A stretch of 64,000 bases of DNA from Clostridiales bacterium (lineage in GTDB: Bacteria > Bacillota > Clostridia > Lachnospirales > WQUN01). Under the pieces are notes generated by a model, which saw nothing but the letters and a program-made list of their open reading frames with translations, was not told where the DNA came from and made no database searches. The stretch covers positions 1 through 64,000 of the forward strand of contig JAISGK010000051.1 in the NCBI GenBank assembly GCA_031263155.1, given 5' to 3'. The position numbers and the translations under genes are program-made. Positions 52,134 to 64,000 of this stretch are shown here, piece by piece; within the stretch, counting starts at the first letter, position 1, and each line of letters opens with the position of its first letter.

Positions 52134-52331
52134 CTAGAATAGTTCGCAGCCCTGTTCCTTGAATTCCTCAATCTTTGCAAGTAGAAGCTCAGTATCGACT
52201 TCCAGATATTCAGCAAGGCAATCAAGGCAATAGAAGCGTTTTGAATCCTTGGCGAGCAACTTTTTGGTCAGCCCGATTTCATTCTTGCTTAGGGCTTCTT
52301 TTCCACAAATGTAACAGTTCCTTTTCTCCAC
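52134..52331 (-). CDS. Small zinc-binding protein at the end of the BREX operon
   Basis: 65 residues, GTG start at 52331, five bases after the brxL stop. CYICG near residue 6 and CLDC near 36 form one four-Cys zinc site (RFYCLDCLAEYLEVDTELLL). The C-terminus is acidic and helical. It is the last gene of the operon. Similar small CxxC proteins occur in Clostridia without known function. It may be a BREX accessory protein or a passenger. Confidence 0.6.
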   Translation of the reverse strand: MEKRNCYICGKEALSKNEIGLTKKLLAKDSKRFYCLDCLAEYLEVDTELLLAKIEEFKEQGCELF

Positions 52332-52336
52332 ACTCT

Positions 52337-53824
52337 TTACCCCACTTCTTCAAGGTCAGGTCTGACGCTGAACACAGGGATGTCTTTCCCGCGATACTCC
52401 ACATCAAGAAGCCCCAACTGGTACTTAATCGTATCCCGCATCTTTCGCGCCCGGTCAAGGCAGTAACGCTTGAACTCGCGGGCGCTAATATCACTCGCGC
52501 TTCGAACTTGGGGGAATAGCAGTTTCAGGTACGCTGTTGAGATGCGCTTTACTGCCTCAGTATCGCGAGTGTCCGCAGCCTCAGGAACTTCAATGAGCTC
52601 ATCCACTATGGCGCGATAACTCATATCATCACGCAGTTCGTGCATAATTGAGCAGAAGTATTCCGAGTTCAACGCCCAACCCGCAATCTTGAGGTCGTCA
52701 TTCATTCTGGGAATGTTCCAACCCTTTATAAAACCGTGAAAACGCTCTATCAGCGCTGACTCGTGAAAGACGGGTGGGAGTTCCTCAAACATATTACCGA
52801 ATCCATCCGCATCCATCGTTTCTTCCTTGATGTTGCCGCAAAGAATAACGCCCGCATCACCGTCTACACGATGATTGCCAATATTGCAATAGCCATTTTC
52901 ACAGAAAGATTTCAAAGCTCCGCGCATTTCATTAACGTCAGGAAATGTTATCGTCTGCACTTCATCAAGTGTAACAAAGTCATTACTAGCGACTAATCCA
53001 TCTGTTCGCTTTGAGACATCGTAAAACATCTTTGCGCGACTCATAACGCCACCGCTTGACAACCAGCCATAGCGACTTACCTGCCCAAATAAATATGATT
53101 TACCGGTTCCTTTAGGCGCAAGCTCAACTAAATTCAACTTCTTTTCCACAAATGGAAGCAACCGGGTAAGCATCGTCAGTTTCTTTTCCTCATTACCAAG
53201 ATAACCGCTCGCGTTGTAGTCCACCGCGCCAAGTAGAACATCAAGCCACTCCGCAGTAGTGAACTCACACCGCGCCTCTTTGAAGTAATTGATGTCAATT
53301 GTATAAGGACAGAAGCTCTTGAACGCCGTCAACTTGATTTTGCCCCGGTTTGCGCCTTTCGACTTGTTTTTGGAAAGCTCCACATCATAGCTATCAGGCG
53401 AACGATAGCCGATTTCGACCATTCCCCACGTCTCGCGTCCACGCACCAAATCATCTTTGCAGGTCTGCCATACGGCATCCTCAATGATTGTGTCTTTGTT
53501 TGACAGCCCAAAATCGGGCAGAGCAAAGGACACCTCTCCCGTTTTGATGTCAATGTCTACAGATACCTTGGCGAGAAATTTCACCCGCTCATGTTCAATA
53601 ACCACTTGATTCTTTATCGCCGTCCACTCATCCTTGCGCGGCAAATAAGTCCGCACAAAGTGAACCAACTCGTCGGAATCAAAGTGCCCGCTCTCGTCCT
53701 CAAACTTCTTTAAGAGCCAATCGCGCATAAAGGAAGGTAGGCTCAGAGCGGAAAAAAAGTTGCTCTTCTTAAGGTCTTTGTATACGACCATTTCGTCAAA
53801 GCAATTCCTGAGTTTCTCAATCAC
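52337..53824 (-). CDS. brxL: BrxL, AAA+ component of the BREX defence system (short form)
   Basis: 495 residues from GTG 53824, eight bases after AGGGGGG; the open frame runs back to 53854 inside pglZ. N-terminal region (EKLRNCFDEMVVYKDLKK) and AAA core: Walker A LAPKGTGKSYLFGQ, Walker B FVTLDEVQTI, sensor ILCGNIKEE, and an arginine-rich ALIERFHGFI. It ends soon after the AAA part (LLDVEYRGKDIPVF); the Lon-like proteolytic domain of long BrxL is absent, as in the shorter BrxL subfamily (TIGR02688-like). BrxL is required for phage resistance in types that have it, as a DNA-binding ATPase. Confidence 0.88.
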   Translation of the reverse strand: MIEKLRNCFDEMVVYKDLKKSNFFSALSLPSFMRDWLLKKFEDESGHFDSDELVHFVRTYLPRKDEWTAIKNQVVIEHERVKFLAKVSVDIDIKTGEVSFALPDFGLSNKDTIIEDAVWQTCKDDLVRGRETWGMVEIGYRSPDSYDVELSKNKSKGANRGKIKLTAFKSFCPYTIDINYFKEARCEFTTAEWLDVLLGAVDYNASGYLGNEEKKLTMLTRLLPFVEKKLNLVELAPKGTGKSYLFGQVSRYGWLSSGGVMSRAKMFYDVSKRTDGLVASNDFVTLDEVQTITFPDVNEMRGALKSFCENGYCNIGNHRVDGDAGVILCGNIKEETMDADGFGNMFEELPPVFHESALIERFHGFIKGWNIPRMNDDLKIAGWALNSEYFCSIMHELRDDMSYRAIVDELIEVPEAADTRDTEAVKRISTAYLKLLFPQVRSASDISAREFKRYCLDRARKMRDTIKYQLGLLDVEYRGKDIPVFSVRPDLEEVG

Positions 53825-53837
53825 AGATATCACCCCC

Positions 53838-56078
53838 CTAAAACAAGTCATCAAAAGCGTCGTTGGTTTTGCCGCTCTTGCCTTGAGCTTTTATCACAAT
53901 CTCGCCAATCAGGTCGTCGCCGGCGTAAACACTCGCCGGATGGTCGCCCGCTCGCTTTGTATCGGGCAGTTTCACGATATAGTGGCTGTCGTCTGTTTGC
54001 GTCGCATAATATGGCTTTCCGTTCAACACAACGGTAACATCACGCACGGGAGCGTTAAAGAACAGCTTGATCTCTGTGCCAGCGCGGAAGTCCACGATAA
54101 CTGTCTCATTGACCAATTTAACGGTTACATGGGCGTCTTTCAGCGACAATTCGATAACGGGGACGACGACCTCTTCCAAGGATGCTCCGCCGTGAACCTC
54201 GACATTCGCCGCTCGGCTGCCCTTGAAACGACCGTAATCAGCAAGCACGAGGTATTCGTTTTCCTCTGCGGCGAAAGGCAGGTCATAGGGTTGAAACAGC
54301 TTACAGCATCGTCCCGAATGCTCACCCGAAGTGTCGGTATCGTACTTCTCCTCTTTACGGCGCAGTACAGCAAGGCGAGAAGCTCCGTGGTCGCTAACAA
54401 TCAAGAATCGTTTATAATGCCTGAGCGCCAGTTCCGTCGCTGCCTTGTCTATCATCGCCGTGATGATCTCCAGCTCCCTAGCGAGGTGAATAGGCAATTC
54501 GTTGTTGGTAAAGTTGTACCCACCCGCATCTTTGTGCTTGGTATCGTCAAGTTCGTCGTTCTTTTCTTTGTGCCCTTGCCACGAATTAAAGAATCCTTTG
54601 TTAGTTGACGTTATGGTTGGCAATTGTGCTCGGGCGATGCCAACGTGAAATGAAAGCTCCTTCTTTTGCGCCAAGGTTTCAATCAAACCCAGATACTCTA
54701 CGCCAAGCGCGTCAAGACAGTAGAGGCATGTCTGGCTTTTATTCACACTATCGATAATCATCTCTCGTGTGGGAAGTTGATTAAACGGGCGCAAGAGGGC
54801 AAATTTATCCACCTTTTCTAAAAACTCAGGTTCAAGCTGATTGGACAGCTTTTGACGTTTGTATGCCTCAAAGTAATCAGTCAGTAGATCCGCGAGTTCA
54901 GGGCATTTGAAAACATACTTTTTTAGATAAGCCGCCAACATCGGGTAGATGCTCTCAAGCTGCGGTATAAATCCATTGCTTGAGAGCCAAGCGATAATCT
55001 CCTCACGCTCCACCCGCGTGCCATCGGTCAGCTTATAAATACTTTCGGAGGCTACTTGGCGGCTATTGACCACGAAATTGGCGATATTCGATTCGGGGAA
55101 TTTCTCAACCAAAGCCTTACGCTCCTTATAAAATGTGGGAAACCGCTTATCTGTGTGCGAAATTTCGATGATTGCGTTCAAAACGATGCCGATGAAATCC
55201 TTGAAGCTGCTTGATTTATCCAGCACGAAACGAAGATAGCCGCTGTGCAGTGTGTCAACTTTGCTTTTGAGGTAGATGAAATATAGCCAGTTGCGGTAGC
55301 CGTTTCCCGCGATACGAGAGTAAAAATCGGCCATTGGGTCGCGGTTCAGCCCGTGCTTTTCAAACACAGCATCAAGCGAGCCATCTGACTGGTTTAGTTC
55401 TGCCAGCAACTTTTCCCATTGTGTGTCCGTTCCGCAAGAGCGCGCCAAATCAAAGCCGCTCGTAGAGAATTTAATGCCCTCATAGGCGTTATTTATTTGA
55501 CGAACTGTGAATATCTCCTTATTGAGATTGATCACTGTACTTACGGTTATGCCGCCATTTCGACCGTTTTCCAATTCCACGAGCATAGCCTTGAATCCTG
55601 CCAAAGCTGATAACCCAACAGAAGGAGCGGCAAGCGTGAAAGATAGATTGCACTCGGCGCCGTCAACAATACTGTGCCTGCGGTTATCAAAACGCGGGTC
55701 CGTCTCTAATCCGGCAATCAGCGTAGCAAGCCCTCGAAGGAGCAGAACAACTTTCGCTCCACCAACATTGAGATCTTTCAACCTTGACAGCGTGCGCACC
55801 GCTTCGTCAATTCCCCGAAGGGCAAGAAACTCCCCAAGCCCGGTCACAACAAACTTCTTCCCGATGACGTTCACATCGGCCGCCTCAATATGGTTAAGAA
55901 GCCCGTCGATGTCGGGAACCTTATCATCGCCGCTGCAGAAGCTGCTCATTGAGATAAAATCCAGTCCGCAAACCTTTAGCTCATCTATCGCGGACAGATA
56001 CTGATCGTCGCTGATGAACAGGAAAAACGGCGTCTTTACTATGGAAGTCAGGTAGCTTTTTACTGAGTCAATTTCCAT
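53838..56078 (-). CDS. pglZ: PglZ-family BREX protein
   Basis: 746 residues; the hallmark protein of all BREX types. The alkaline-phosphatase-fold PglZ domain has its metal-binding residues around LYCLDALGVEYLGL (near 450) and FLIVSDHGASRLAVL (near 570), with a late GGASLEEVVVPVIEL. The first 440 residues are helical and the last 120 form a beta domain, as in type-4-like PglZ proteins. SD GGAGGC lies in the end of brxC, and ATG 56078 follows the brxC stop by 5 bases. It may hydrolyse a nucleotide or DNA intermediate; the reaction is unknown. Confidence 0.92.
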   Translation of the reverse strand: MEIDSVKSYLTSIVKTPFFLFISDDQYLSAIDELKVCGLDFISMSSFCSGDDKVPDIDGLLNHIEAADVNVIGKKFVVTGLGEFLALRGIDEAVRTLSRLKDLNVGGAKVVLLLRGLATLIAGLETDPRFDNRRHSIVDGAECNLSFTLAAPSVGLSALAGFKAMLVELENGRNGGITVSTVINLNKEIFTVRQINNAYEGIKFSTSGFDLARSCGTDTQWEKLLAELNQSDGSLDAVFEKHGLNRDPMADFYSRIAGNGYRNWLYFIYLKSKVDTLHSGYLRFVLDKSSSFKDFIGIVLNAIIEISHTDKRFPTFYKERKALVEKFPESNIANFVVNSRQVASESIYKLTDGTRVEREEIIAWLSSNGFIPQLESIYPMLAAYLKKYVFKCPELADLLTDYFEAYKRQKLSNQLEPEFLEKVDKFALLRPFNQLPTREMIIDSVNKSQTCLYCLDALGVEYLGLIETLAQKKELSFHVGIARAQLPTITSTNKGFFNSWQGHKEKNDELDDTKHKDAGGYNFTNNELPIHLARELEIITAMIDKAATELALRHYKRFLIVSDHGASRLAVLRRKEEKYDTDTSGEHSGRCCKLFQPYDLPFAAEENEYLVLADYGRFKGSRAANVEVHGGASLEEVVVPVIELSLKDAHVTVKLVNETVIVDFRAGTEIKLFFNAPVRDVTVVLNGKPYYATQTDDSHYIVKLPDTKRAGDHPASVYAGDDLIGEIVIKAQGKSGKTNDAFDDLF

Positions 56079-56083
56079 TATCT

Positions 56084-59000
56084 TCAGCCTCCATTCGCCA
56101 GTATTTCAATTCCCACCGTTATGTTGTCTTTAACCAAACGTTTCAAATATTGCTTCAACTGAGCGTCGTCCATCTCATCAATTTTCAGGAGAACCTTGTC
56201 GCTGCCGCCAGCGTTATACTCAGCATTGGCAAGCTGCTCGACCTTTGTCTTTACGCTCGGATTGTCACGCCAGTCGTAAACATCGACCGAAAGGTGGTCG
56301 AGCGCGTCCCTGACCTTATTGAGGTCGGGAAGCATTGTGCTGTACACACCGATGATGTCGCGCTTGAACGCCGCGTCGCGCTTTCCGTCCTCCGCAAGAA
56401 CATCAAACAGCGTGGTAGATTCAAGAAACACCAGAGCAGCCTTGATTTCGGAATCCGTACCCCAATTGCGGTTAAGCGTATCAAACGTCTTCTTTGCCCG
56501 CTCAAACTCCGTTGCTGAAACCAAACACAGAATGGGCGTCCTGTAACGGCTCGACCACTCACGCGGATTTTTCGTACCCGCTTTGTCTTTCCACAGTCGA
56601 AATAGTTGCGATTTCAACTGGTTCTTGCGGAACTCCTCCGCAGCCTCTTTGACCTTGATATTGCAATCTGTTCTCGGCAACTCGAAAAGACCTGTCCCGA
56701 TATTGGTCTTTACGACGGCGATGTCGTCAGCACTGAGGTCTTCAAGGTATGCTTGGTAAACTTCGGCAAAGACACGCCTGTCGCTGTTCAGAAGTTCTCT
56801 GATTTCCGCTCCGTGCGATAGCAGTTCGGTGTGGAGGGTTTTCAATCGTTCAGGCAAAATATCATCTTGCTTGTAGATTTTTAGGAGCGTGTCGAAGGTT
56901 TTTGCCAATGCGGGATACTTTGCACGTAAAGCCTCGCAAGAAACTCCGATAAACCTTAGCCGCTCGCGCCACTGTTTATACGCCTCATTAAGGGAGTGAG
57001 TGAGCGTGTTTAGGATGGTGTTGCTTTCCTTGACCACACTGTATTCTGTCAGCAGTTTGCGGAGTTCATCTTCACCCATCTGCTTATCCCAGAGACACGA
57101 GTGCTTCACAGCAAATAGGCGGCGTATGTCGGCAAGGACGTTGTTCTCCGCGCCAATATCCGTTGCAAGTCCTATAACCTTGCCATCCTCAAAAGAACGG
57201 AGGTACTCTCGCATACCCTTTTGGCAGTTCTCGCTGGTGAGCAACGCAAGCAAGTTATCGGCAAGCGAGGGCTTTGCGGCCGCAATTTTACCGATTTCAA
57301 CCGCCTTTTTGTGAGCTTCGTCACCCTCTTTCTGAACAAGTTCAATATACCGCCGCACCACATCAAAGATGCCGATTGCGTCCACTTCTTCAAGACACCA
57401 TACAGGAAGGTTCAGCCCGCGCATCTTCGCGGTCACGGCTATCGCAGCCTGACCTGCGGATGAACAGGAATTGGCGGGTATGCTCCACGCCTTTTCGGTC
57501 AATTCATAGAACGCCTTTTCGTCGGGGGTCATCTTAACAATGAATGTAGGCTTTGGAGATTTGCCAATGTAATTTCCGAGCATCTCGGCAAGTTTGTCCG
57601 GAGTCATCTGCTCGTGTCCTCCAGAGGAATCACTATAGCGATACGGCTCACTGCCGTACTCTTTCAGCAAAAAACCGGCGATGAACGACGAGAGGTTGCA
57701 TGGCGCAAAACCGTAAGTGTCCTCTAGGAAGTCGTAAATCTCGCCAATCGAAATCTGCTCATCTCGGGCAAACGCAGCTTCAATGCGCCTATCCACCTCA
57801 ACCTTGATTTTCGAGATGGGCAAAGAAGCTGTCGGCGGGTTTTCCCAATATCTATCAATCTTCCAGACGGTCGGGAGAATAATCTTTTCGACCTCGCCAA
57901 CTGCATGGCTCGTAGTCTGAATAATGCCGGACTTCGCCGATTGTTTCATATTGGTCGTGATTTTCAACTGACTCTCCTTCAGGCCCTTGGCGAAGTCAAA
58001 CACATATGGGAACTTATTCGTCACGATGGTCTGGAGGACACTTTCCACGCCTTGACCGTTGCCGAGTTTTTCGCCCTCTTGGTTGGCGTAGGTATACACG
58101 ACAAACTGACCGTTGTAGATGCGGTTTTTCCAGTCTTGGTCTAATACGTGCTTGGCTTTGTCGTCACTTTCCCTAGATGATGTATTCTGATTGCCTTGGT
58201 AATACATAGCCATTGCGGAGAAGTCCACATATTGTTCAAATGCCTCCTGCCCCAGCGGGGTGGAGAGTGTATCAATAAACACAATGTTCTCGTACTGCTT
58301 ATCAGCGACCGCAGCCCTGAGTGTTTTACGGAAAGCAGCCGCTTCCGTGTCATCCTTGGCAAAGGCAATAACCGCGTGGAAATTCCACACTGCGGTCTTA
58401 TCGCGTAGGACATTGATAGTGCGGGTAAAGTCAGCGGTGGTGACAGGATTAATTTTGCCCGTATCTGTACCCGGCTCGGACTCAAAGCGCAGACGCAGAG
58501 CGGGAGAAAGAGACAGCACGGTTGACAGTCCGCCATCGGTCACGAGTTTAGCGGTTGTGCTATTCTGCCTTACGGTCTTTTTGTGGGTGTCAATTTTCGA
58601 TTGGTCTCCCGCAAGCACTGCGACGGCGTAAACATAGCGCCCTCCGCTCATTGGATTAGAGATGAGGATACCTTTATCCTTCAGCCCCTTGGCGATATTC
58701 TCTGCCTTGGTCGCTCCCTCCAAATCGGAAATACCCTCAAAGACATAACTCAGGTTTGGCCCTGTCGGTTTGAAGAGGTCAATCGTGCCGCCCAGACGCT
58801 GGTCAATCGCTTGCATAATGAGGATGGCTTTCAAGATCGCCTTCTCGTCCTCACGCAAGTTCTGCTGTTGCGGGAAGGTGTCGAGTATTAGCCGAATATC
58901 AGATGTCAGATGCTCCTTACTCTTTTCATAGAAAAAGTTCCAGAGCATATCCACGGTGAGGAGAGGGTAGGCGTCAAAGGGACCCGTGCCCTCAATGAAC

Positions 59001-60247
59001 CACTGGAACGCTTTCACATCATCCGTATTCGCGGACTTGATGAAGTCGAACATGCTCCGCTGGTTAGATTTAAACGAAGAGGCTATGTTTTTCAGGAGCA
59101 ACGCCGCCATCGGATGAAGCGGCATAATGTCTTTTATCACCTGCGGATTGGTTATCTTCGCAGTCGCCATAACCTTCAGGCGAGAGTCCTTCACACTGTT
59201 GTTCAGGTCGTCGGCAAGAATATCCCATTGCGATTTAGCGGCGGGCTTCACGTTGAAGGCGTGGCCGATAAGATTGAAGGCGATATTGTCCGGCAGTACA
59301 ATTGGTATGGAGATAAAGCGGTCGCTGACCTTGGACTGATTGCCACGGTCGTTATCCGCCACATAAATCTGATGTGGCTCGTGGGTTACCACGATGAAAT
59401 AGAAGGGCTTGTTCTGAACCAAGGCGGCGACCTTCTGGAATTCGGAGAGGCTCTCTCGGTTGTTCTTAAAGTAATCGGAGAACTCATCCCAAATAAACAC
59501 GATTCTCGTATTGTTTCGGTCGATGATATCCGTCAGCCAAGCAATGAGCCTATCGGAATCAATAGTCAGAGCCGTGATGCCCTCTTTGTCTGCAAGACGG
59601 AAGATGTTCTCCACCAAAGACTTTACCTCGCCGTTCTTGCGAAGCACGTTCAGCACCTCATCGGAGGTGGACTGAGAGAACAACGCACGCCATTCCTTAT
59701 CAGGGTTATTCAGGAGGCTATTGAACATCAACTTGTGGTCGGCATCTTCCAGCCAAGCGATTATACTCTCTTTCAGCGTGTTCTCGCCAAGATAAGGTAT
59801 GTTCTGGCGAACAAGAGCAGCCTTGACGCTTTCCTGTATGGCAAAGAAGAGGTCACGCGCTGACATAATGCCCCCGGAAGCGTAGCGATGTGCCACCACG
59901 ATGCCCTTTTTCTTATGCCCTATCAGCTTCTCACACAGGTCGATTTTTTTTCTGAGCGGCTCGTACTTATTCCAGTAGGCGCGGAATTCTTCTTCCGGTA
60001 CTTCGAGGATTCGCCGCAAGGCCAAAACGCACTGTGATTTGCCTGTGCCATAAGCACCCTCAATCCATAGCGCCTTGCCGTTGTTCCGTCGCGCAAGGGC
60101 ACGTTCCATTTCGGTGAGCATCCCAATGAAGGTGCTGTGGGGGTACGTATTCTCCCAAGGAGCGCCCGCGTTGATTGCCGCATCGTCAATGCAAGGGAAG
60201 TACCTTTCATCAATGTCAAAGTATTCGCGGTATTTGTTGTTAGGCAT
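56084..60247 (-). CDS. brxC: BrxC/PglY-type P-loop ATPase of BREX
   Basis: 1387 residues from ATG 60247 (SD AAAGGAG), overlapping the brxP stop by 8 bases. Walker A IEGAYGTGKSQC near residue 65 and Walker B IVFIWDEFSDYF near 265 mark a large STAND/AAA-like ATPase. The remaining two thirds have helical repeats without recognisable catalytic motifs, as usual for BrxC (about 1200-1400 residues). BrxC is present in every BREX type and is thought to power the modification or exclusion complex. Cotranscribed with pglZ and brxL. Confidence 0.92.
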   Translation of the reverse strand: MPNNKYREYFDIDERYFPCIDDAAINAGAPWENTYPHSTFIGMLTEMERALARRNNGKALWIEGAYGTGKSQCVLALRRILEVPEEEFRAYWNKYEPLRKKIDLCEKLIGHKKKGIVVAHRYASGGIMSARDLFFAIQESVKAALVRQNIPYLGENTLKESIIAWLEDADHKLMFNSLLNNPDKEWRALFSQSTSDEVLNVLRKNGEVKSLVENIFRLADKEGITALTIDSDRLIAWLTDIIDRNNTRIVFIWDEFSDYFKNNRESLSEFQKVAALVQNKPFYFIVVTHEPHQIYVADNDRGNQSKVSDRFISIPIVLPDNIAFNLIGHAFNVKPAAKSQWDILADDLNNSVKDSRLKVMATAKITNPQVIKDIMPLHPMAALLLKNIASSFKSNQRSMFDFIKSANTDDVKAFQWFIEGTGPFDAYPLLTVDMLWNFFYEKSKEHLTSDIRLILDTFPQQQNLREDEKAILKAILIMQAIDQRLGGTIDLFKPTGPNLSYVFEGISDLEGATKAENIAKGLKDKGILISNPMSGGRYVYAVAVLAGDQSKIDTHKKTVRQNSTTAKLVTDGGLSTVLSLSPALRLRFESEPGTDTGKINPVTTADFTRTINVLRDKTAVWNFHAVIAFAKDDTEAAAFRKTLRAAVADKQYENIVFIDTLSTPLGQEAFEQYVDFSAMAMYYQGNQNTSSRESDDKAKHVLDQDWKNRIYNGQFVVYTYANQEGEKLGNGQGVESVLQTIVTNKFPYVFDFAKGLKESQLKITTNMKQSAKSGIIQTTSHAVGEVEKIILPTVWKIDRYWENPPTASLPISKIKVEVDRRIEAAFARDEQISIGEIYDFLEDTYGFAPCNLSSFIAGFLLKEYGSEPYRYSDSSGGHEQMTPDKLAEMLGNYIGKSPKPTFIVKMTPDEKAFYELTEKAWSIPANSCSSAGQAAIAVTAKMRGLNLPVWCLEEVDAIGIFDVVRRYIELVQKEGDEAHKKAVEIGKIAAAKPSLADNLLALLTSENCQKGMREYLRSFEDGKVIGLATDIGAENNVLADIRRLFAVKHSCLWDKQMGEDELRKLLTEYSVVKESNTILNTLTHSLNEAYKQWRERLRFIGVSCEALRAKYPALAKTFDTLLKIYKQDDILPERLKTLHTELLSHGAEIRELLNSDRRVFAEVYQAYLEDLSADDIAVVKTNIGTGLFELPRTDCNIKVKEAAEEFRKNQLKSQLFRLWKDKAGTKNPREWSSRYRTPILCLVSATEFERAKKTFDTLNRNWGTDSEIKAALVFLESTTLFDVLAEDGKRDAAFKRDIIGVYSTMLPDLNKVRDALDHLSVDVYDWRDNPSVKTKVEQLANAEYNAGGSDKVLLKIDEMDDAQLKQYLKRLVKDNITVGIEILANGG

Positions 60248-62564
60248 TTCCGTTATCTCCTTTAAACAAATCAAGTACGTCCTGCGACGATTTGTCTTCT
60301 GCCAGCACTATCTTTTCGAGGTCGTGTGTGAACGATGCCATGATGAATTCAGGATACTTCGCCGAGAGACCCAAGAGCAGTGGCGTCATATCCTCGCGGT
60401 CAAGCCCAAAGATACGTGTGGGGCTTATGCCATCGCGGTCGATGCTGTCGTTCAAGAGTGTTGCGAGGGTGAACTCCTTGTAGTCGTTGCACTTCTCCGC
60501 GAACTTGAACAGTCCGTACAGCACCACGCGCGGGTCGCTCACCGAGCATTTCGTGCGGACAAGTTTGCCGTCATCGGTGACAAAGCCCCAGTGAAGGTTC
60601 GTGCCGAGCGGCGTTTCCACAAGACGCTTATAAGCATAACATATGGAATCGTGAGCATCGAATTTCCCAGATTTACTTGGTTCGACTCCAGAGGCAAGTA
60701 ACATTTCTACAACATCTTTCTTCGGGTAATTTCTGCCAAGTTCAAAATTCGCAATATACCATTCCACCTGTAGGTTCTCAGCAACGAGGTTAATAAGGAT
60801 CAGTCCTTGTGCCACATCGGTTTCCCACCCCAAGAAAGATATAATTTCTTCAAACGAAGTGATATGGTTTTCCTTATCAATCAATTTGCAATCCCTCAAA
60901 AAGCGGCAGAACGGACCCAATTGGTTCTTCCTGTTTAGCGAGTTGTCACTGAAATACTTATCTTTCTTACTAAAAAAATCAGCAAGCCATTTAGTTTTAG
61001 GCGCATGGTTTGACATCGTATTTAGCGTTTTCATTGGGATCCCTCCTCCTTGCGGATGACGTAATGAGTGATACATTAAACAGCCGCTATCTATGGCGTG
61101 GCATCTTTGGCATTGAACACATCCAGTAATATGGACTTTCTCGCCCGCAAACCTTATTGCTCCATTCGTACAGTTTGCTTCACATACTTTGCACCCTTGG
61201 CAACATGCAGCTTTGTGAAAAACTTGTCGAAATAAACGGCTTAATAATGGGTTCTGCTTAGTCACCTCTTCACTTAGCTTGGCAATATACCCTGTTTTAG
61301 TCTCAGCAATGGAATAACTGCCATTTGGCAAATCAATCGTTTTAATCCATTCGCGCCAGTCAGAGACAGCATTTTCAACACTTATTGTTAGAAACCCCAT
61401 TTCAAACCATTCTGTGCAGTGGTTGAGATTGTTTGCTAAGTCACGTCCATTTTTCCTTGCGCTCCATCCTCCACTTTTTACAAGCTCAACAGGATTTACA
61501 GAGCGTCTTCCATTAGATTTCTTTATCAATTCAAAGTATTTACTTACTTCACTTGTGTAATTGAAATATTCAAAATAACTTGCTTTGCCGCCTCCCATTG
61601 GGCAGCAAATACAACCAACTCTCGCGCTGCCTTTCTTATAGGATTCATTTAGGGTTACATCATTTGTGTATATATAAAGCCACACTTCGGCTGAAGTCCA
61701 TTCGAGTATTGAGTTGTGGCTGAATTGCCCTTTTATCTTCTTGCCATCATTAAAGTAGTCATATTCAGCGCGGGTCGCGCTTTCCTGCGCCCGAATACCG
61801 ACAAACGCCAAGCCTGTATAGTCGTCTTTACCCGTGATTTCCCTCAACTTCAAAGTCTGCGGGGCGCTTTTATGCACCGAGCAGCACCAGCGTAGAACAC
61901 GAGACGGAGGGCCGAATAACTCCCACGATTCCTTGGGGTTCAGGTGCGACTTGGCAATGTAAAACGGAATTTCGTCTTCCACACATTGCTGTTTGGTCTT
62001 TTTTATAACATCGTAGGTATCAGGGAACTCCATCCCTGTATCGCCAAATACCACAACGAAGCTACCCTTGGGCAAGGCTTTCTTGACGAGGTCGAGCAAG
62101 ACACAACTATCCTTCCCACCCGAAAACGCCACATGAAAGCAGTCCAGCTTATCCTTGTACTTGGCGTAGATAGCCAGTATCTTTTTGACAGTGGTTTGCT
62201 CAATGATTTCAAGCATCTCGCGGTTTGTCTCTATCATCGCCTCTATGTCAACGGGGCGAAGCGATATGCCCTTGGGCTCTGGCGTTACCGGCTTGCCGTC
62301 CTCACCGTTTGGGATGATAATCTCAGGGGCATTGTAGATGTTCCCGCCTTTTAGCTTTGCGACGAGCGTACCACGATAGTAATAGTAGTTCGCCTCCGCC
62401 CACATATAGGGATAGTCGGTCTGCTTGTCGTACTTCCAATATTTATCAAAGCCAAGTACGTCCAGTTCGGAAGCATAAACGGGGCGGGGTTCTTTGGAGA
62501 ACCCGGTCGGTGAGGAATTAAGAAGCAACCCGCCAGCTTTCTTGTCGTAGGTATATGAGTACAT
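60240..62564 (-). CDS. brxP: BrxP, PAPS-reductase-like protein of type 4 BREX, with Fe-S and DUF4007-like regions
   Basis: 774 residues from ATG 62564, eight bases after AAAGGAGG. The N-terminal part has an RNase-like lead (MYSYTYDKKAGGLL). The PP-loop SGGKDSCVLLDLVKK near 150, FGDTGMEFPDT, RWCCSVHKSAPQT and ARVGCICCPMGG match PAPS-reductase/DndC enzymes. Then come a ferredoxin-like cysteine cluster (CCQGCKVCEANC, CVQCQRCH, near 465-500) and a C-terminal domain of about 260 residues resembling DUF4007. DndC-type enzymes install phosphorothioate sulphur in DNA. No DndA/D/E genes are visible. SD and gene order tie it to brxC. Confidence 0.9.
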   Translation of the reverse strand: MYSYTYDKKAGGLLLNSSPTGFSKEPRPVYASELDVLGFDKYWKYDKQTDYPYMWAEANYYYYRGTLVAKLKGGNIYNAPEIIIPNGEDGKPVTPEPKGISLRPVDIEAMIETNREMLEIIEQTTVKKILAIYAKYKDKLDCFHVAFSGGKDSCVLLDLVKKALPKGSFVVVFGDTGMEFPDTYDVIKKTKQQCVEDEIPFYIAKSHLNPKESWELFGPPSRVLRWCCSVHKSAPQTLKLREITGKDDYTGLAFVGIRAQESATRAEYDYFNDGKKIKGQFSHNSILEWTSAEVWLYIYTNDVTLNESYKKGSARVGCICCPMGGGKASYFEYFNYTSEVSKYFELIKKSNGRRSVNPVELVKSGGWSARKNGRDLANNLNHCTEWFEMGFLTISVENAVSDWREWIKTIDLPNGSYSIAETKTGYIAKLSEEVTKQNPLLSRLFRQVFHKAACCQGCKVCEANCTNGAIRFAGEKVHITGCVQCQRCHAIDSGCLMYHSLRHPQGGGIPMKTLNTMSNHAPKTKWLADFFSKKDKYFSDNSLNRKNQLGPFCRFLRDCKLIDKENHITSFEEIISFLGWETDVAQGLILINLVAENLQVEWYIANFELGRNYPKKDVVEMLLASGVEPSKSGKFDAHDSICYAYKRLVETPLGTNLHWGFVTDDGKLVRTKCSVSDPRVVLYGLFKFAEKCNDYKEFTLATLLNDSIDRDGISPTRIFGLDREDMTPLLLGLSAKYPEFIMASFTHDLEKIVLAEDKSSQDVLDLFKGDNGNA

Positions 62565-62566
62565 CT

Positions 62567-64000
62567 TCAACCCCTCCTTTCACGGTAGACTCGCGCCTTG
62601 TCTATAATTTCCATGACCTTGGCGGTCGTGCTTCTGCCTATGAAACCGCTGTCATACAGGAAGCGTCCCACATCGCTATCCTTTAAGGGGACATCAGCAT
62701 TCGCCACGGCGTCGGCCATTATCTCTGTATAATCCATAGCGCAGCTTTTACGGATGACCGCTCCAGCGTTCCGCGAGTTGACCGACGGAGTATTGAAGCG
62801 AAAATTTCGACTGAAACGACGGCAGTAACTTTCAAGTAAAAACAAATTCCAAGTATGTCCACAGTCTGGAAACGCGCCAAAAGTTGTGAAAGACTTCAGA
62901 GGGATATAGTCGCCCTTAACAACCAGCTCTATTGCCTCGTCTATCAAATCAGCGTCAAAGTAGACATATCTGTCCGCCACATAATTTTCTTTATCAATAC
63001 GAACTAGGACAGTATTGCCCGCTTCCATAGAGATCCAGCGGTGGACTTCACCAGTTAGTTTCTTTTCGTAGTCCAAGAGGTCGCCCAGAGTGCATTTATT
63101 GATGGTTCGACAGTGTTCCTTCATAATAGTCAGCGCGTCAAAGACATCGCCTTTAGGCGTGACAATTTTGCCTTTCTTACCGAATTTGTCCGACAGACAA
63201 ATACGGTAGACCGCGTTGTGAATCGCCGTGGTGGACAATTCATAGTTACGATCCCCAATATCGCCAAAGGGCAAGTCCGTAATCGAAACATAGCCTCGAA
63301 CATTACATTCCCGCACAGCGGCAGTTCGGATTGCCTCGCATTCCTCGTTAGTGATTTCAATCCGACTGATATGAGAGAAGGTTTCCACACTGCTCCAAAT
63401 AAAATCACCGTTTTGACTAAGGGCGTACTTTATCCTTTCTAGTGGTATGTACGGCAACCGCATGGCAAGTTGGTCATAGGTCAGCAATACATCTTCATCC
63501 CACACTCGAAGGATCTCGCTCTCCAACGCGGCGAATGCAGAAACGTTTGCGTAGCCGAAATGGGTCTGCGTGAAAAACAGCTTTGGGAACAATCCGCGAA
63601 GAATGCCTATCATCATATCCTTCGAGATCACGTTTGCTCCGAACAGCCAATTCTCATTCTTGGCGTAGAACTCAGCGAAAAAGATGGCCTGTGCGCCATC
63701 GGCAAAGTAATCCTCCGCCAACCCCTTTATTCGCTCTTTTGCCTCAGTCGAAACCGCATAAACTTTGCCTTCATAGTTCGTTCCGCAGGCCGCAATGTAG
63801 ACTTTCAGTTCTTCGTCGGAGAGCGTAAGTTCCTCGCTCAAATCTTCTGTGGCAAAGGAGCGAAAGCGCGTCATCTCGATCAGCGAGTTTAATCGATAGC
63901 CGTTTGAAAAGTGCGCCGATAGCACATCGGTCAACTGCTCAACAATCACGGGGTCGAGCGTCGGCATCAGTGGCGCGGCGGGCGCGGTGTGAGTTGGCCG
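62567..64000 (-). CDS. Unrecognised first visible gene of the BREX operon (partial)
   Basis: At least 477 residues; the frame is still open at the window edge. ATG 63967 exists but has no SD, and the upstream codons read a Pro/Ala-rich linker (THTAPAAPLMPTLD), so the N-terminus probably lies outside. The visible part is soluble and mixed alpha/beta; the C-terminus has winged-helix-like features (DVGRFLYDSGFIGRSTTAKVMEIIDKARVY). I recognise no family. The stop precedes the brxP start by 2 bases, so the gene belongs to the operon. A sensor, regulator or recognition subunit is possible. Confidence 0.7.
   Translation of the reverse strand, partial: RPTHTAPAAPLMPTLDPVIVEQLTDVLSAHFSNGYRLNSLIEMTRFRSFATEDLSEELTLSDEELKVYIAACGTNYEGKVYAVSTEAKERIKGLAEDYFADGAQAIFFAEFYAKNENWLFGANVISKDMMIGILRGLFPKLFFTQTHFGYANVSAFAALESEILRVWDEDVLLTYDQLAMRLPYIPLERIKYALSQNGDFIWSSVETFSHISRIEITNEECEAIRTAAVRECNVRGYVSITDLPFGDIGDRNYELSTTAIHNAVYRICLSDKFGKKGKIVTPKGDVFDALTIMKEHCRTINKCTLGDLLDYEKKLTGEVHRWISMEAGNTVLVRIDKENYVADRYVYFDADLIDEAIELVVKGDYIPLKSFTTFGAFPDCGHTWNLFLLESYCRRFSRNFRFNTPSVNSRNAGAVIRKSCAMDYTEIMADAVANADVPLKDSDVGRFLYDSGFIGRSTTAKVMEIIDKARVYRERRG

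Follow-up and report, generated by a model that had tools for sequence, protein, structure and literature searches.

A type 4 BREX operon of a Clostridiales bacterium begins with a regular gene for a predicted winged-helix rod, a candidate DNA-reading subunit

The window analyzed here, i.e., the whole stretch of 64,000 nucleotides from a Clostridiales bacterium, ends within a minus-strand operon of six genes, all of them open reading frames, in the order X-brxP-brxC-pglZ-brxL-Zn. The initial annotation had placed the six genes in this same order, with the first left as an unknown, and had called the locus type 4 BREX. The features are as follows.

62567 to 64000, minus strand (complete at 62567 to 64834): gene X, with residues 279 to 755 of 755 inside the window.
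60240 to 62570, minus strand: brxP, PAPS-reductase-like sulfurtransferase (PADLOC BrxP, PAPS_reduct, SGGKDS).
56084 to 60274, minus strand: brxC, large AAA+ ATPase in the type 4 form of ~1390 aa (PADLOC BrxC, Walker A).
53838 to 56078, minus strand: pglZ, type 4 PglZ phosphatase/nuclease (NCBIfam BREX_PglZ_4, PADLOC).
52337 to 53854, minus strand: brxL, short type 4 BrxL (BrxL_ATPase, BrxL_N, PADLOC).
52134 to 52331, minus strand: 65-aa Zn-knuckle protein (Cys-X2-Cys ... Cys-X2-Cys), a type 4 BREX companion.

The genes are packed in the manner of a single transcript, as the annotation had proposed: X shares 4 nt with brxP, gaps of 5 nt separate brxC from pglZ and brxL from the Zn gene, and brxP/brxC and pglZ/brxL abut or overlap, according to the start codon. 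Promoter and terminator scans of the locus gave signals within or below shuffled expectation and were uninformative. The operon does start beyond the window, as anticipated, but not far beyond it, gene X beginning at position 64834 of a contig that goes on to 77686. Upstream of X lie a handful of small genes, a gene resembling O-acetylhomoserine sulfhydrylase, and genes for sugar use (names read from translations); the nearest plausible gene is ~0.9 kb off on the opposite strand. No methyltransferase (pglX included), brxA, brxB, or cysteine desulfurase was found upstream of X (64834 to 77686), in agreement with the methyltransferase-free layout first described. With X complete and no methyltransferase, brxA, or brxB upstream of it, the locus, as judged from its sequence, is therefore a complete type 4 BREX operon.

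Few BREX types have been studied as little as type 4, the sulfur-using one, which is reported as a phosphorothioation-based system that places sulfur on the backbone of its own DNA; ~457 type 4 taxa have been published. PADLOC, NCBIfam, and Pfam profile searches agreed on this assignment, with best-model E-values for brxP, brxC, pglZ, and brxL all at 1e-116 or lower (PADLOC, NCBIfam) and Pfam concordant. BrxP matched the full-length PADLOC BrxP model (3.7e-255) and Pfam PAPS_reduct (1.9e-33), placing a PAPS-reductase family protein where other BREX types use a methyltransferase, one of the criteria by which type 4 is recognized. BrxC matched its PADLOC model at E=0 (2114 bits) and PglZ matched both PADLOC (4.4e-260) and NCBIfam BREX_PglZ_4 (NF033445; 1.1e-168, 563 bits with a cutoff of 140). 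BrxL, a short form without the Lon-like C-terminus, matched PADLOC (4.6e-224) and the Pfam families BrxL_ATPase (1.4e-108) and BrxL_N (3.2e-31). The catalytic motifs are intact, namely, SGGKDS in BrxP, Walker A and B in BrxC (Walker A, GAYGTGKS) and BrxL, and D-LG-EY plus SDHG in PglZ, and the ferredoxin-type (Fe-S-type) cysteines of BrxP are invariant across nine relatives. A better fit of brxC and pglZ to another defense family, raised by the annotation as a possible objection, was ruled out, the type 4 models being ahead by hundreds of bits.

According to the main text of PMC12839542, the parts of type 4 are BrxC, a PAPS reductase, DUF4007, PglZ, and BrxL, often with a cysteine desulfurase (in the operon in 56% of type 4 taxa) and a small zinc protein, whose gene is already known as a common companion; the DUF4007 unit, SspB/BrxA-like, is often fused to BrxP. 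In our BrxP, residues 520 to 765 may be weakly DUF4007-like (SspB-like), their alignment with a DUF4007 protein being colinear but weak (hhalign E 6e-4, prob 28%) and Pfam DUF4007 being unmatched. No cysteine desulfurase was found in the operon or its surroundings (52134 to 77686), while PF00266 family genes are present elsewhere in the genome; since the enzyme is reported as optional, type 4 membership holds despite its absence. The operon shares with BREX type 4 (brxPCZL) the same four core genes and order, a type 4 PglZ, a short BrxL, and the Zn-knuckle companion. It differs in having no cysteine desulfurase and in carrying gene X, which the published core lists do not include (PMC12839542, main text). 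In the relatives inspected, other genes occupy the site directly after alaS where the operon lies, and a FastTree BrxP tree places its BrxP closest to proteins of Lachnotalea (75% BrxP identity for the Lachnotalea glycerini locus) and Desulfosporosinus; both observations would fit horizontal arrival of the operon.

Gene X had been described as an extra unrecognized gene. It is indeed unrecognized, searches of Pfam, PADLOC, NCBIfam, and PDB sequences having assigned it to no family, but it is not extra. In a GTDB genome scan with BrxP alignment, which gave at least 337 relatives overall, an X homologue lay directly upstream of brxP on the same strand in 76/76 loci having upstream sequence among the nearest 80; as the best 80 of at least 337, these loci are no guide to more distant members of type 4. 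The two genes mostly overlap or abut (median gap of ~3 nt, most within 20 nt), and the 76 loci span ~14 phyla by record labels, many of the records being metagenome bins. Of 55 related loci with space for these genes, 46 carried the Zn gene and 43 the cysteine desulfurase, so that X is steadier than both within this nearest-locus set. Because the X profile was built from the upstream genes themselves, a check for circularity was made: a one-sequence phmmer search with the window core recovered 70 of the 71 core rows (itself included), and a seed profile made only from rows with E<1e-20 recovered those remaining, the weakest at 5.8e-32; the row missed by phmmer was no part of that seed. The X core and BrxP vary together in identity, with a correlation (r=0.81) comparable to those of brxL (0.76) and pglZ (0.84). 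None of the other four parts has changed as fast as X (median identity of 24% versus 48% for BrxP). The BrxP tree is discordant with taxonomy.

Even-draw sampling at the class and phylum levels (Bacillota), with the window genome counted in, gave 17 loci, in 10 of which X adjoins brxP or is one small gene away (G000, G158, G635, G538, G536, G616, G774, G921, G805, and G933-C43). The X core was not found in the other seven (G755, G503, G970, G971, G995, G933-C30, and G812); G731, which ends at a contig edge, stands outside this count. The X-less loci fall in one nested BrxP subgroup, except that G812 groups with two Bacteroidota loci on a deep branch (FastTree, long branches flagged). In the X-less subgroup, BrxC is shorter at several loci (~1140 to 1190 aa versus ~1390). 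X was not found in a Methanosphaera plasmid type 4 locus either, and in L183 and L240 the core is absent and a short gene for one of the N-terminal modules of X (TKP, see below) is retained in the X position. A gene also occupies the X position in Bacteroidota loci L239 (9297 to 10712, 471 aa, overlapping brxP) and L238 (9748 to 10890, 380 aa); it is possibly a very divergent X, a kinship that is unsure (hhalign prob 23%). Universality of X in type 4 BREX is thus ruled out, the gene being missing from one BrxP subgroup and undetected in L238 and L239. Overall, the adjacency counts and the grouping of X-less loci mainly in one subgroup mark X as a gene of the main type 4 lineage, of which it is, on comparison of the sequenced loci, the regular first gene and predicted subunit.

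The X core, from an alignment of 71 sequences, was predicted by AlphaFold (AF2) with a mean pLDDT of 95 as a rod of six tandem winged helices. In the window, the six units (a division based on a reading of the predicted secondary structure) run from ~63952 to 62750, with a C-terminal helical unit after them. The significant Foldseek matches to the core were tandem winged-helix proteins (SelB C-terminus, UFL1, TFIIIC, and ESCRT-II). The last winged-helix unit holds the strongest conserved motif, FP--G--WN-FLLES; the conserved residues show no apparent enzyme motif, and there is no recognized nuclease domain. N-terminal to the core are 0 to ~935 residues with recurring SAM-like, TKP, and W modules in variable order, one SAM-like and one TKP module in the case of the window X. 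Pfam matched the integrase SAM-like DNA-binding domain PF02899 in 3/54 X proteins. GmrSD type IV restriction proteins (L246, L247, L254, and L256) also end in the ~120-aa TKP module; X differs from these enzymes in the lack of a recognized nuclease domain. In L220 (6162 to 6878; G933), the W module stands alone as a gene of 238 aa located between X and brxP, and a W-module search of 126 genomes gave 0 matches, an uninformative null. Two consecutive X genes, the second with a truncated core, are found in L101 (4179 to 9974), and the L116 core is likewise truncated.

Several identities for X were considered. BrxA, BrxB, a methyltransferase, and a helicase were rejected, the window X having no Pfam, PADLOC, or NCBIfam match to any of them, nor the 54 full-length X proteins to BrxA or BrxB. 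A second SspB/DUF4007 was not supported, hhalign leaving the X core unaligned with the DUF4007 of L020 and PADLOC SspB matching 0/54 X proteins. TKP as a SeqA-like reader of modified DNA is at most a lead: SeqA entries among the Foldseek matches had TM-scores on the query of 0.39 to 0.49 but E-values of 0.6 to 1.6, and the PDB sequence search and Pfam were unsupportive. A viral structure library returned nothing significant for the core. Since no description of X was found in the main texts of the type 4 BREX literature examined, X is likely new to the literature.

Relatives of the X core occur outside BREX. One, retaining the WN-FLLES motif, lies beside an SspD-like/SspB/SspC cluster in a single genome (L020). 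Also in one genome, a 1334-aa fusion (L198, 5945 to 9949; G113) heads a PbeA-PbeC-DndB-DndC cluster and combines the X core with three stretches of RNA polymerase alpha-CTD and a match to sigma-70 region 4. Proteins of ~930 to 1100 aa with an X core were observed beside a GHKL-ATPase-like gene, the PADLOC candidate system PDC-M33, in L186, L197, L199, and L042; PDC-M33A/B matched in L186 only, the other three being assigned by similar layout. Solitary ~800- to 920-aa X-core proteins with no recognized defense gene adjoining were seen in L187, L189, L192, L193, L194, and L196, with alphaCTD/sigma4-like domains in those tested; such alphaCTD/sigma4 fusions, at a distance from known defense genes, account for many X-core relatives other than those of the Ssp and Dnd clusters. 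The core of these clostridial proteins, solitary or beside Dnd-Pbe, is homologous to X (E of ~1e-30 to 1e-50), but alpha-CTD and sigma region 4 replace the N-terminal modules and most lack WN-FLLES. BREX-linked X proteins had no alphaCTD/sigma4 match in Pfam.

DndG, SspB, and BrxA, regarded as DNA target readers in the main texts of PMC10853773 and PMC12839542, are, like X, fast-evolving tandem winged-helix proteins of DNA-modification defense, although with two or three units versus six and without the modular N-terminal domains that X adds. From the conservation, position, co-inheritance, predicted fold, and module shuffling observed for X we infer DNA binding and a reading role, the best-supported inference given that X resembles these multi-winged-helix readers in its fold, its rate of change, and its neighbors. 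That the locus is a complete phosphorothioation-based BREX operon with X as its DNA-reading subunit is, in our estimate, an evenly balanced proposition. According to this model, whose roles for BrxP, BrxC, PglZ, and BrxL come from their families and published work, BrxP would put sulfur onto the DNA backbone at a short motif. As the operon encodes no cysteine desulfurase, the sulfur would come from one encoded elsewhere in the genome. BrxC would serve as ATPase scaffold, and PglZ and BrxL would act against invading DNA. X would most likely bind DNA, read the target site or the sulfur mark, and relay the reading to BrxP/BrxC or PglZ, its N-terminal modules probably tuning what is sensed. Several points count against DNA reading. 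Tandem winged helices are also known from protein scaffolds and RNA-binding proteins, and UFL1, ESCRT-II, and SelB are among the Foldseek matches. The type 4 core already has the multi-winged-helix DUF4007, which would make X its second reader, and one type 4 subgroup manages without the X core. The links to Ssp and Dnd come from one genome each, and many other X-core relatives are alphaCTD/sigma4 fusions found apart from known defense genes.

More tentatively, and with the chances somewhat against it, X may found a family of DNA-reading subunits serving type 4 BREX, Ssp-like, and Dnd-Pbe systems, in which the rod would read backbone or motif and swappable N-terminal modules would set sensing, making X the missing specificity/sensing component of most type 4 BREX.

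The main rival, which we hold to be unlikely, is that X is a protein scaffold or adaptor whose rod holds BrxP, BrxC, and PglZ while the N-terminal modules bind triggering phage proteins. The best Foldseek matches to the core include winged-helix rods that work through proteins (UFL1-DDRGK1, ESCRT-II, cullin/CSN); the N-terminal modules, moreover, are reshuffled as sensor modules often are. However, one of these modules resembles the integrase SAM-like DNA-binding domain and another, TKP, is common to X and the DNA-restricting GmrSD enzymes. It is quite improbable that X instead regulates transcription of the operon from outside the defense machine: while its distant relatives fuse the core to alpha-CTD and sigma region 4 and X is the operon's first gene, the BREX-linked proteins lack those domains by Pfam, are co-inherited with brxP in mostly overlapping or abutting genes, and, at 450 to 1400 aa with reshuffled modules, would be unusual operon regulators. 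A dispensable hitchhiker, tied to brxP by common ancestry within the lineage sampled, would suit the BrxP subgroup without the core (e.g., G755, G503, G970, G971, and the Methanosphaera plasmid) but is the least probable reading in view of adjacency in 76/76 loci over ~14 phyla despite low identity (median 24%) and a BrxP tree off taxonomy, and of the TKP gene still held in the X position by L183 and L240.

As a DNA-reading subunit, X would be a concrete candidate for site choice or for discrimination between self and invader in such systems. Type 4 is described, in the main texts examined, as brxPCZL, often plus the desulfurase, and X is carried by most of its lineage. If X is needed, transferring brxPCZL alone could fail or lose specificity, and detection tools would be overlooking a type 4 component.
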